NCBI GenBank assembly: GCA_949987565.1
Contig: OX465120.1
Coordinates: 498,501-562,500, forward strand
Direction of reading: 5' to 3'
Source of the DNA: Luidia sarsii
Taxonomy: Eukaryota > Echinodermata > Asteroidea > Paxillosida > Luidiidae
Length of the DNA stretch: 64,000 nucleotides
The translations under genes were made by a program, and so were the position numbers. This document shows, piece by piece, positions 6,673 through 16,204 of the stretch. The stretch's first letter is position 1. Every line of letters begins with the position of its first letter. Under the pieces are notes generated by a model. That model made no database searches. It was not told the origin of the DNA and saw only the letters and a program-made list of their open reading frames with translations.

Positions 6673-9600
6673 ATGATTGTCTTACGGATACTTGCTGCGT
6701 TGGCGCTGTGTTCGTCAGGCATCTGTTACACGTGTCCGCCCGAATCCGGTAAGTAAGAGAGTTGGGGCCCCTTGCAAAACCCTGCTCTGGCTCTGGCTCT
6801 GGCTCTGGCTCTGGCTCTGGCTCTGGCTCTGGCTCTGGCTCTGGCTCTGGCTCTGGCTCTGGCTCTGGCTCTGGCTCTGGCTCTGGCTCTGGCTCTGGCT
6901 CTGGCTCTGGCTCTGAATCAGGCTCTGGCTCTGGCTCTGGCTCTGGCTCTGGCTCTGGCTCTGGCTCTGGCTCTGGCTCTGGCTCTGGCTCTGGCTCTGG
7001 CTCAGGCTAAGGTTAAGGCTCAGATTTCTTCCATTCATATCAGTAATGTGCCAAGATTAGTCTAGGCCTATACTGATCAATACATGTAAAAACAACTACT
7101 TCATCGAGTGCAGTTTGCAATTAATTATAATTATTGGTTCGACCTATAAACTCCGGCCTCGTTGCTAGCTGTCTGAAACACTCCCTGGATAATACAATGA
7201 ATTACAAATGTTGCAATTTTTTTGTTTTTTTTCTTCCAAATTTAGAGGGCCTGACGTTTCGATCCTAGCAGGACCTTTCTCAAAGACAAAATGACAAGGA
7301 CATGTACACAGTCAGGGGAAGGAAAGCCCTGACACACGCATGACAGTAGAGGAAGGACAAACGGGAAGGGAGAGGGATGCAGATGAAGGGAGGGTAGATC
7401 AGAGGGAATACAAACAAAAGGGCGGGGAGGATCAAAGGGACAGGAGGGAGGTGGGAGATCAAAGGGAATATCCACAGGGAAGATGAAAGAAAAGAGGTGT
7501 TAATGAGATGAGGATTAGTCATTCCCAAACTGAATGTTAAGTCCATGAGGTTGTGTTGTAAGGTTCTGGTGAAATGCTTCTGACTGGCGCCCGAAACCCA
7601 GCAAAGACTAGTTGACTATTTGGGAAGGCCGCCATCTAAGGGCTTGATAGCTCAGATGGTAAGAGCGCTGGTGTGCCAAAGACTAGTTGACTATTTGGGA
7701 AGGCCGCCATCTAAGGGCTGGATAGCTCAGATGGTAAGAGCACTGGTGTGCCAAAGACTAGTTGACTATTTGGGAAGGCCGCCATCTAAGGGCTGGATAG
7801 CTCAGATGGTAAGAGCGCTGGTATGCCAAAGACTAGTTGACTATTTGGGAAGGCCGCCATCTAAGGGCTGGATAGCTCAGATGGTAAGAGCGCTGGTACG
7901 CAGGACCAGAGGTCTCGGGTTCAAGTTCCGGTCAAGTCCAAGTTTTCTTTGCCATCTTTCAAAATTGTTCGATAGCTCCCAGTCATGTTTTTTTTCTTTT
8001 ATGAATTTCAAATGAGACTTAAGGCTTTGCATGGTGGGTGAATCAATATAGGAAGGTTTGCGGTGACACCAAGAGGTTTGGTTCTGAAAAGAACCTGAAG
8101 GTAACTCTATATATAAGTTTCATTTAAATCTGTGAACATTTCTGTTTTTCGATCTTACCGATGTTTGAATGTTTAAAATGTATAAAAAAGGTGATTTTAC
8201 GCGAATGATGCTTCGTTGACTCGCAGCGACTGCCGTTCGTGACGTCTTCGGTTCGTCTAGATTTGCCCAGCGAGGGTTGTGGTTCCAAATCGCCTGCCCA
8301 GAGTACCGGCGAAGCGAGGCGATCGACGGTATCTTCTGGTGGAAGGACTCCAAGGATCCGGAGCATGGTGTCCTTAACTACTTCCTCGGACGCCTGTACA
8401 ACTTCACGGACCGGCACGAGTTCGGTGAGGACTTGAACTTGGTCATCAGAGGTGTTCTTCGCAGTGATGAGGGGCAGTATCTTTGCAACATCGATCCGAA
8501 ACTCACCATTTCGAGGGATGCAAGGACTAGTCTCCAAGTTATCGGTAAGAGTTTCAGTAGCATCCACTGAAATGATTTCTTCACTCATTTCTTTACTACC
8601 ATTTATCCACTTTATTTCGTCCTTTTTTTTCTCCACCAATTGCTCCGTAAAAACTGTGAACATTCACGTACATGTATCATGAAGTTAATACAAAAACTGT
8701 TTCAAACTGCTCACTGATGACCTGCAATACATAAATCTCAAAAGTTAGGGCCTAACGTTTCGATCCTAGCAGGACCTTTCTCAAAGGCAATGCTAGGAAT
8801 AGGATCAAAATGTCAGATTAACATACATGTATAATAAAACAAAGTTCATAAATCTATTGCTTACGTTTACTATTACAATTTCTTGAATCAAATGAACAGT
8901 TTACTTCACTTGAATTGAATGGACAAATCATTTCAGTTTGATGCATCCGAAAAATTATAGAAGTCCTATAAAGAAACCGTCCTACGTTGTAGCATAGCTA
9001 AGCTATGGACATTAATGTACAAGCATGCCCGTACAATCAAGAACTTGAGGCTCTTAATTAAATCTCATAAATTGAACATTTTCACAAAATGTGTGACTCA
9101 TAAGGTAGATTACGTACCTCCTTACTGCCTGGCTATCGGAAACTGACCACCCAAGGATCCGTGTCAAAACATTTGCCGTGAAGCCGGTCTGCGATGCTGG
9201 CAAATCAAATTCGGCGCCATCTTTTTTGACAATAAAAATTGTCAGCCGCGAGGTGGCGCTATACAAATATAAATACGTCGTTGGCGTCATAATTTATGAT
9301 AATTTCCATCAACGTGAGTCCAACGGGTCCTTGCGTGACAGAGCTCACAGAATGGCTACACTACCTTTGGATATCCAGTGAGATTCGTTGACTAGAATAG
9401 AGGCGGTCGGAGCTCTTGTCGAATCCTTTAACTAAATAGAGAAATCTTAAAATTTAGTGGGCCTGACGTTTCGATCCTAGCAGGACCTTTCTCAAAGGCA
9501 GCCTTTGAGAAAGGTCCTGCTAGGATCGAAACGTCAGGCCCACTAAATTTTAAGATTTACATTTTGGTAATTTTAGTCAGAAAAAGCAGTTTGCAACATT

Positions 9601-15600: not shown

Positions 15601-16204
15601 TGCTTGCAAGAAACTGACCGACCTCAGGTTGTCTTTGTACAAAGTCACCATGGAAGGGTTTGATGAGGCGAGGAAAGAAATTGCGATTGACAAAGGGACG
15701 TCATTGGTAAACCTGGAAGCATTGCATCTCCTTCATGGCTCCACTGCCGAGGTTTTCTTGGGCTTTTTGACCGGCCTTTTGCCCTACCTCCATCTCCTGA
15801 GGAGTTTTCACATTTCCTGCGTGACGGCCCTGGAGATACGTGACGAGGCTGTGACGTCATTCGAAAATGAAATGAGGAAATCTGACATCATGCCAAATCT
15901 TAAAGACCTTGTTATAACCAAGATGGAGACGGTCCGGTCTAGGTTGTCCACGCTGGAACTTCCAAAGAAGAAGAGCGACGGAGAGTTGATGAAGAAAATA
16001 AAGAATGTCAAAGCGAAAATACACCTACCCAAATTAAAGGCCAAAGGAGACGACACAACGAAAATGACAGGTGGCACAAAGGTCAAAGGACTCGACACAA
16101 CGACACCGACCGATGACAGTAAGTCACATATTGGTGACAATAGATACGAAGGCCTCGGGGATACATTGGTGGCAAAGCAGTATCCCGGTTACATCGTCAA
16201 GTAA
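6673..16204 (+). CDS. Copy A: Ig-Ig-Ig-Ig-TM-NACHT-LRR receptor (membrane NLR)
   Basis: Seven exons: 6673-6748, 8227-8544, 9803-10141, 10745-11050, 11369-11728, 11980-12156 and 12702-16204, all joined after codon base 1; 1692 residues. Exon 1 is a signal peptide (MIVLRILAALALCSSG). Residues 26-131, 132-244, 245-346 and 347-466 are Ig domains; two end in the motif (F/Y)WCHVF. A transmembrane helix spans about 478-500, followed by WKRR. The last exon has Walker A GRSGSGKT near residue 617, Walker B AICIDDC near 697 and a sensor-like MATRD, which mark a NACHT NTPase of the STAND class. Then come an acidic stretch (about 914-930), a Thr/Pro-rich repeat (about 1175-1340), leucine-rich repeats (LRKLDLRLN, LTDLRLSL; about 1430-1600) and a Lys-rich tail. 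It would join outside recognition to inside NLR signalling. Ligand and pathway are unknown. Confidence 0.85.
6783..7003 (+). repeat. (CTGGCT)n hexanucleotide array in copy A intron 1
   Basis: Near-perfect CTGGCT units with one interruption (AATCAG) near 6915, starting 34 bases after the exon 1 donor. The matching intron of copy B has a shorter, less pure array at 31050-31199. The same hexamer occurs in intron 5 of the Ig receptor gene (39885-40255). Long Gly-Ser, Ala-Leu and Ser-Gln frames are artefacts of the repeat. Confidence 0.95.
7243..7560 (+). mobile_element. GGCCTGACG-family repeat with A/G-rich body
   Basis: Begins GGGCCTGACGTTTCGATCC and continues with GCAGGACCTTTCTCAAAG, then an A/G-rich body with AGATCAAAGGGA. 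The same layout is at 17740-18060, 20215-20440, 20755-21010 and 50565-50720. Class unknown; probably a non-autonomous element. Confidence 0.7.
7586..7960 (+). mobile_element. tRNA-derived SINE with a four-fold 75-bp tandem head
   Basis: Four units spaced exactly 75 bases apart (GTTGACTATT at 7611, 7686, 7761 and 7836) each carry TAGCTCAGATGGTAAGAGC, a tRNA-type A box. Only the last unit runs on into GGTCTCGGGTTCAAGTTCC, the B box, and then the tail CAAGTTTTCTTTGCC. Because 75 is divisible by three an open frame runs through, but it is not a gene. It sits in copy A intron 1. Confidence 0.75.
8025..8100 (-). repeat. Diverged copy of the histone-hairpin repeat
   Basis: Contains GGTTCTGAAAAGAACC at 8080-8095, next to GGTGACACCA and TTTGCATGGTGG, motifs shared with the tandem repeat at 59980-60375. 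On the minus strand the hairpin reads GGTTCTTTTCAGAACC, a histone stem-loop form with one compensated stem pair. Confidence 0.5.
8745..8795 (+). mobile_element. GGCCTGACG-family repeat core
   Basis: Core GGCCTAACGTTTCGATCCTA followed by GCAGGACCTTTCTCAAAGGC, in copy A intron 2. Preceded by TGCAATACATAAATCTCAAA, a variant of the family's usual left flank. Confidence 0.7.
9452..9560. mobile_element. Perfect palindrome of the GGCCTGACG family
   Basis: Two family units meet head to head: about 50 bases ending in CTCAAAGGCA are followed directly by their reverse complement starting GCCTTTGAGAAAGG. Both outer ends read AAATTTAGTGGGCC on their own strand. A similar palindrome with a short spacer is at 40985-41101. 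It lies in copy A intron 2. Confidence 0.85.
10147..10408. mobile_element. 262-bp MITE, copy 1
   Basis: Terminal inverted repeats GGACCTTTCCCATG and its complement; the interior has ATATGCAAAT and GCGCATGCGC motifs near both ends. Its length equals that of the copies at 19611-19872 and 45817-46078. It sits in copy A intron 3, five bases after the exon 3 donor junction; copy B lacks it, so it inserted after the duplication or was lost from B. Confidence 0.88.
12370..12555 (+). mobile_element. Two degraded GGCCTGACG-family cores in copy A intron 6
   Basis: Cores GGGCTGACGTTTGGATCC near 12372 and GGGGCTGACGTTTTGATCC near 12515 are each followed by AGCAGGA(T/C)CTTTCTCAAAT. Both are mirrored in copy B (26555-26590 and 26700-26740), so they predate the duplication. 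Confidence 0.75.

Follow-up and report, generated by a model that had tools for sequence, protein, structure and literature searches.

Whether an animal NLR can span the membrane and carry an immunoglobulin (Ig) ectodomain in the same polypeptide is the question raised by a gene at positions 6673-16204 of a 64,000-nucleotide stretch of the starfish Luidia sarsii (assembly GCA_949987565.1, contig OX465120.1, positions 498,501 to 562,500 of the forward strand; the whole stretch is called the window below). Animal NLRs are generally taught as cytosolic sensors. The window was found to contain this gene (copy A) and a mirror-image relative (copy B). Our reading, to which we assign a probability of about 0.6, is that they are two inverted, nearly identical copies of a gene for a predicted type I surface receptor, which likely senses a ligand of microbial or otherwise foreign origin via a variable outermost Ig domain (Ig1) and signals by joining its NACHT bodies.

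Copy A (+ strand) has seven exons and encodes 1,692 amino acids with one terminal stop codon; every intron has GT-AG borders and is of phase 1, and the coordinates, exon joins and protein length given in an earlier note on this locus were correct. In the spliced open reading frame (ORF), exon 1 (6673-6748) contains the start codon and the signal peptide, and each of the next four exons encodes one Ig domain: Ig1, the diverged membrane-distal domain (8227-8544), Ig2 (9803-10141), Ig3 (10745-11050) and Ig4 (11369-11728). Exon 6 (11980-12156) encodes the transmembrane (TM) helix at about 12015-12080 and, behind it, a basic juxtamembrane segment (KRR). The single terminal exon 7 (12702-16204) encodes the NACHT domain, a winged-helix/helical part, a Pro/Thr-rich repeat of about 170 residues (14616-15138), leucine-rich repeats (LRRs) of the ribonuclease-inhibitor type (15158-15985) and the stop codon. 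The NACHT core (12959-13423) contains the Walker A motif GRSGSGKT (12974-12997), the Walker B motif ICIDDC (13211-13228) and an asparagine at position +3 (13229-13231); the winged-helix motif FVLEILQE follows at 14060-14083, with a leucine (14066-14068) at the canonical NLR histidine position. In the protein, Ig1 occupies residues 26-131, Ig3 245-346, the TM helix 479-500 and NACHT 612-766.

The Ig and NACHT domains were assigned with Pfam, Ig4 and the LRRs with predicted models, and Ig2 by its resemblance to Ig4. Pfam matched the Ig V-set family in three stretches of the copy A protein (3.4e-20), the best of which (residues 262-334) is the third Ig domain, and the NACHT family with 5.1e-13 (49.6 bits versus a curated cut-off of 26.7); the AF2 model of Ig4 matches Ig V domains. 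A hydropathy scan (mean of at least 1.6 over 19 residues), on which both the predicted signal peptide and the predicted TM helix are based, found hydrophobic stretches at residues 1-21 and 471-506 only, with a maximum of 3.52 in the latter, in line with the clear TM helix described earlier. The C-terminal LRRs, likewise described before, were found in the predicted model of the copy B counterpart of exon 7, whose fold was re-examined mainly over model residues 505-892 and whose top Foldseek match is NLRC4, and they are kept across the relatives. No Pfam match to DEATH, CARD or PYD, the adaptors whose N-terminal position the earlier note saw taken by the TM helix and the Ig ectodomain, was obtained in the spliced copy A protein at E values up to 1, and none to BIR.

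Relatives of copy A are found in other starfish. Six proteins of Patiria miniata and Asterias rubens showed 33-34% identity over 90-95% of the query (residues 300-900), and a second search gave at least 16 relatives, with 11 from Patiria and 5 from Acanthaster planci among the matches listed. Aligned with copy A, the six Patiria and Asterias proteins keep the order unbroken from the signal peptide through the LRRs without rearrangement. The check proposed earlier, for Ig, TM and NACHT together in echinoderm proteins, had a positive outcome in Patiria, Acanthaster and Asterias, and these collinear predicted proteins, together with the second copy in the window, support the claim that Ig domains, TM helix, NACHT and LRRs would belong to one polypeptide. 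The relatives are annotated as 'uncharacterized protein' or 'Ig-like domain-containing protein' (e.g. LOC119726494, LOC110975472 and LOC117305409). Our starfish set comprises P0001-P0019, with P0019 (Patiria) lacking NACHT. At least 11 Patiria, 5 Acanthaster and 3 Asterias proteins stand against two genes in the Luidia sarsii window. P0001-P0018 share with A and B the collinear domains (six proteins aligned) and a single NACHT clade (nine proteins), which unites these nine with A and B at 100/98 support in an 18-row tree of NACHT sequences. No description of a starfish Ig-NACHT family was found among the matches listed in the open-licence literature, subscription journals lying outside that search.

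The earlier note knew of no well-studied receptor with this layout. This did not hold, the Ig-TM-NACHT layout being already published in sea cucumber: AjNLRC4 was described in 2021 as a coelomocyte membrane receptor, and AjNLR-new in 2026. According to the reports, AjNLRC4 (Apostichopus japonicus, MN607598) has Ig domains at 31-132 and 251-353, a TM helix at 483-503 and NACHT at 600-757; it is located at the coelomocyte membrane, binds microbes with its Ig part, agglutinates them, dimerises via its Ig domains and drives actin-dependent uptake (PMC8699970), and its Ig part binds caspase-1 (PMC11932488). Compared by published description, AjNLRC4 and copy A have the same Ig-TM-NACHT order at nearly the same residue numbers and neither has a CARD; AjNLRC4 is described without LRRs and with a second predicted TM helix (776-795), whereas copy A has LRRs and a single TM helix. 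AjNLR-new (PIK48001.1), a membrane protein of 1,197 amino acids, likewise unites Ig, TM and NACHT, but it is reported in an inverted topology, with two TM helices flanking the Ig part and NACHT outside (PMC13133943), while copy A has one TM helix and NACHT is predicted inside. TM-bearing NLRs of other layouts are reported from anthozoans (PMC5094078) and sponges (PMC12909245); both groups have a predicted membrane NACHT in common with copy A, those of anthozoans carry 3-5 N-terminal TM helices (PMC5094078), and the available parts of both accounts make no mention of an Ig ectodomain on an NLR. Copy A and its relatives differ from the AjNLRC4 type as reported in the LRRs, the single TM helix, the Ig1 pattern and the occurrence as a family across starfish; the inverted pair, the altered nucleotide site and a nearest genomic NACHT that lies behind a DEATH exon are new as well.

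Copy B lies on the - strand (31312-23725) as the mirror image of copy A and retains all seven exons and the splice sites. Alignment to copy A placed the exons for the signal peptide (31237-31312), Ig1 (30130-30441), Ig2 (28749-29087), Ig3 (28046-28351), Ig4 (27365-27724) and the TM helix (26950-27120; in frame and 6 nucleotides shorter than in A); the NACHT-LRR exon 7 (23725-26405) ends with a TAG after the LRRs. Copy B encodes 1,414 amino acids in total, its C-terminal tail is shorter than that of A, and the Pro/Thr-rich repeat is missing from it, the alignment breaking at 14570 of copy A and resuming at 15139. The two genes lie in the arms of an inverted duplication, the left arm (4931-17715, +) pairing with the right arm (21920-32745, -, read from 32745 to 21920) across a spacer of about 4.2 kb. 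Nucleotide and amino acid identities between A and B are 97% and 96% for the signal peptide exon, 93.5% and 86% for Ig2, 99% and 96% for Ig3, 99% and 99% for Ig4, 96% and 95% for the TM exon, and 98% and 95% for exon 7, versus 70-71% and 51% for Ig1. Introns 4-6 are 98% identical and intron 3 91%; introns 1 and 2 are poorly alignable. The island of divergence thus covers intron 1, Ig1 and intron 2 (7054-9754 in the left arm, +; counterpart 31001-29136), and its flanks are 90-97% identical between the arms. Intron 1 of copy A also contains four tandem tRNA-like units (7600-7930), by eye a tRNA-derived repeat. A short element (CTGACGTTTCGATCCTAGCAGGACCTTTCTCAAA and variants) recurs in introns at 7245, 8750, 9460-9545, 12375, 12525 and 30540-30700, and forms a long array, judged by translation, at 52300-53090.

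Synonymous change between A and B is about 14-fold higher in Ig1 (21.2 of 65.8 sites) than in exon 7 (14.0 of 608.2; Fisher 2e-14). Positive selection alone was rejected as the cause, because selection acting on the protein would not by itself add synonymous differences, and because alignment is poor in introns 1 and 2 as well. Therefore, the Ig1 block predates the rest of the gene or has been exchanged for another: either a replacement took place, or gene conversion homogenises the rest of the gene while Ig1 escapes. A third Ig1 in the genome as donor was also considered and rejected; a first-look genome search with the Ig1 of copy B, whose count is a lower bound, gave at least six matches, strong only for the two Ig1 exons. 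The Ig1 difference likely alters what each copy recognises.

Ig1 was the least conserved among Ig1-4 and NACHT in 26 of the 28 pairs formed by eight Patiria paralogs, with a median identity of 60% versus 81-86% for Ig2-4 and NACHT, and 71% for the LRRs. P0011 was excluded from this count for its mis-assigned N-terminus (34 of 36 pairs when it is included), and P0014 and P0019 stand outside both counts, as other domains diverge or NACHT is missing. As to a possible exchange of Ig1 between paralogs, the pair P0001/P0007 has its highest identity in Ig1 (92%), but the two rank correlations computed from one domain to another were both weak (0.14 and 0.17). In three Asterias pairs the difference is small (Ig1 92%, versus 96-98% for Ig2-4 and NACHT). 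Across the four species, the outermost Ig domain is thus the most variable of the Ig domains in two, the window species and Patiria; the trend is slight in Asterias and lacking in Acanthaster.

The nucleotide site of the NACHT domain is altered across the 20 family proteins that have one (A, B and P0001-P0018). Walker A is kept, and a cysteine stands two positions behind the Walker B aspartate in 20/20. Position +3, an aspartate in canonical NLRs and named as a likely contributor to hydrolysis in a review (PMC7583971), is asparagine in 13, glutamate in 4, lysine in 2 and serine in 1, so that the acid is missing in 16/20. The histidine of the winged-helix motif FxHxxxQE, as PMC7583971 defines it, occurs in 0/20, being replaced by leucine in 18, A and B included, and by tyrosine and proline in one each. 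NLRs reported to lack this histidine are NAIP, NLRX1, CIITA, NLRP6 and NLRP8 (PMC7583971). NAIP is also the best PDB sequence match of the family profile (1.2e-9) and hence the nearest solved sequence, likewise without the histidine (PMC7583971), while NLRC4 is the top Foldseek match; unlike both, copy A has no BIR or CARD and spans the membrane with an Ig ectodomain. These sequence features suggest that the NACHT could act as a NAIP-like initiator, and a conventional nucleotide-locked switch appears doubtful in the Ig-TM-NACHT family, because the winged-helix histidine is missing and the acid at +3 usually so.

In the Luidia sarsii genome itself (470.9 Mb), 11 NACHT stretches score, namely A, B and nine others. 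At each of the nine loci, about 20 kb of sequence (7-11.5 kb upstream) underwent a scan for simple motifs; six of the loci were also searched for Ig and TM patterns, and selected ORFs of C4, C10, C14a and C15 were submitted to Pfam. The proposal that every NACHT in the genome is membrane-bound was rejected, since Ig-TM exons were found at A and B among the 11 matches, and at C4 a DEATH exon lies upstream. The C4 NACHT is the closest to A and B in the genome (about 30% identity), adjoins the clade of A, B and the starfish proteins in the NACHT tree (89/85) and, with a DEATH ORF (Pfam 5e-13) upstream, is a candidate DEATH-NLR, known from separate ORFs. At position +3, C4, C10, C14b, C15 and C23b have aspartate and C14a glutamate; the winged-helix residue is histidine in C10, C14a, C14b and C15. 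TM-like ORFs upstream of NACHT at C15 and C14a gave no Ig match among the selected ORFs in Pfam. The C15 locus (L009:8277-9637 with L010:1053-3491), where NACHT is preceded by a hydrophobic TM-like ORF and by another ORF that gave no match in Pfam, may represent a second kind of membrane NLR, and that on C14 (L017:5748-6764 with L005:1138-3486), where a Thr/Ser-rich ORF that is hydrophobic near its end precedes NACHT, possibly a mucin-like one. Three further loci, two on C3 and one on C21, are NACHT-WD40-like by eye. As the simplest reading of the origin of the family, we infer that an Ig-TM gene fused with the body of a DEATH-NLR, eased by the phase-1 introns.

A more distant relative, P0020, was obtained with a consensus query aimed at sea cucumber proteins, which matched P0005 and P0020 only. 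P0020, a possible stand-in for AjNLRC4, has 1,191 amino acids with Ig domains, a TM helix from about residue 486 and NACHT at 619-773, and lies on a 4,743-base contig, a size that suits a transcript. It falls outside the starfish family on a longer alignment (97/95) and nearer to it on a shorter one, with a long branch in both; an approximately unbiased (AU) test did not reject a single clade of P0020 and the starfish family (p 0.119).

Could the locus be explained otherwise? What was read as one gene might be two adjacent ones, the first for an Ig-TM receptor and the second for a NACHT-LRR protein. Ig exons are usually of phase 1-1, and therefore the single shared phase is weak evidence for joining; phase-1 exons with no relation to each other might be linked on inspection by eye, both copies have an in-frame ATG in intron 6 directly ahead of the acceptor, and in the adjacent gene C (below), an Ig-TM gene, no NACHT was found. 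However, the predicted proteins of Patiria, Acanthaster and Asterias hold both halves in the same order at similar spacing, intron 6 measures just 545 bases in copy A and is 98% identical between A and B, and AjNLRC4 was published as a single protein. On this collinearity, the short conserved intron and the AjNLRC4 precedent we rejected two genes as very improbable. It is also unlikely, though less so, that A and B represent two haplotypes which the assembler put together as mirror images, the Ig1 difference then being allelic. Their synonymous divergence of about 2% is within the range of echinoderm heterozygosity, but the arms are separated by the 4.2 kb spacer, no match of the outer flanks was listed beyond about 4.9 and 33.4 kb (1-20 kb compared with 20-46 kb, matches of at least 150 bases, E 1e-15), and the assembly looks chromosome-level: 14 of the contigs C1-C25 were sized, each exceeding 10 Mb, and C26 measures 19 kb, which would mean 25 contigs of chromosome size if the numbering follows length. 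That the pair is a decaying duplicate, with recent copies under relaxed selection and B already shortened, agrees with the exon 7 ratio near 1 and with the TAG of copy B and its lack of the repeat. We consider it quite improbable, as the reading frame of both long exons remains open, Ig1 and TM differ in length by multiples of three, copy B retains the LRRs and the compared motifs, and other starfish have kept the family and enlarged it. A small chance remains with a receptor for self/non-self or cell-cell recognition, whose variable distal Ig1 would mark individuals or partners: a nearly constant chassis that ends in a single, strongly variable distal domain is reminiscent of invertebrate allorecognition receptors, but the NACHT-LRR body is of an innate-immune type, and AjNLRC4 binds and agglutinates microbes and drives their uptake.

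Returning to the reading of A and B as microbe- or foreign-ligand-sensing receptors, several observations weigh against it. The NACHT exon shows no purifying selection between A and B (synonymous 14.0/608.2, nonsynonymous 43.0/2052.8), and this near-neutral ratio is the main result against strong present constraint on both copies; copy B also ends early. The Foldseek TM-scores are at most 0.39 among the 50 matches listed, and therefore the domains match but the overall arrangement does not. When all 55 Patiria pairs are taken, the medians are 40% for Ig1, 50% for the TM/juxtamembrane part, 57% for the winged helix, 69% for the LRRs and 75-83% for the others, so that variability is not confined to Ig1 and our confidence is slightly lower; in Acanthaster, Ig1 (44%, 6 of 10 pairs scored) is similar to Ig3, Ig4 and NACHT (41-46%), with Ig2 at 68%. 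The starfish relatives are predicted gene models, two of the Asterias models being partial at the N-terminus and the mis-assigned N-terminus of P0011 (Patiria) transposon-like by eye. Four of the 20 relatives retain the acid at +3, and the histidine is also missing in C4, the candidate DEATH-NLR (leucine), and in C23b (glutamine); therefore its loss is not specific to membrane NLRs. The topology reported for AjNLR-new, the second sea cucumber receptor, is opposite to the one proposed here.

With AjNLRC4 as an aid, we infer from the observed anatomy how such a receptor could work. One mRNA would span all exons, the Ig part would lie outside the cell and NACHT inside, and Ig1 would set the specificity. 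Binding of a ligand by the ectodomain would cluster the receptors, so that the NACHT bodies meet at the membrane and recruit partners. The earlier note proposed that recognition at the surface could drive NACHT oligomerisation directly; for AjNLRC4, dimerisation is reported to run via the Ig domains. Nucleotide binding by the NACHT likely does without the customary ADP lock, because the winged-helix histidine is missing and +3 is asparagine, and the domain would be triggered by ectodomain clustering, as a NAIP-type initiator. As the search gave no DEATH, CARD or PYD domain, the output would pass to partners, with actin-driven uptake, a caspase-1-like complex (both reported for AjNLRC4) and a DEATH-NLR such as that of C4 as candidates. 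A more speculative extension, possible but doubtful, is a germline-diversified surface inflammasome initiator: starfish-like echinoderms would keep arrays of a constant Ig2-4/TM/NACHT/LRR chassis, homogenised by gene conversion, with an exchangeable Ig1 and a NACHT free of the ADP-histidine lock that seeds a C4-type DEATH-NLR at the plasma membrane as NAIP seeds NLRC4. In our reading, membrane-spanning NLR receptors would form a conserved multi-copy starfish gene family that retains an LRR-bearing NLR body with an altered nucleotide site. Whether an extracellular ligand can drive an NLR body through a single TM helix becomes a testable question, and nature offers a domain-swap experiment in the inverted pair, whose chassis is nearly equal apart from a single diverged domain.

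Gene C, next to copy B (approximately 36489-40564, +), comprises Ig-like ORFs and one TM-like ORF; it is related to the ectodomain, and no NACHT was found in it. Its ORFs at 36492 and 37626 have Pfam Ig matches, that at 38614 resembles Ig2 and Ig4 of copy A, that at 39217 is Ig-like by eye, and the TM-like ORF occupies 40292-40564; a motif scan of the + strand from 40 to 46 kb found no Walker A motif near it. An Ig exon of another Ig gene (1429-1866, -; V-set 6e-07) is located at the left edge of the window. At 58913-63884 (+) lie WD40 repeats (Pfam match at 58913-59269) together with a long ORF, Ser/Pro-rich and unmatched in Pfam, which look like AMBRA1. A head-to-head inverted pair of receptor-like genes was also found at 45298-48043 (-) and 49890-55146 (+); their C-type-lectin-like first exons match Pfam UL45 (3.8e-06, just above the cut-off, and 4.3e-05, below it), both have a Laminin_G_3 match (7.7e-10 and 3.5e-12), and a further exon is alike in both by eye.

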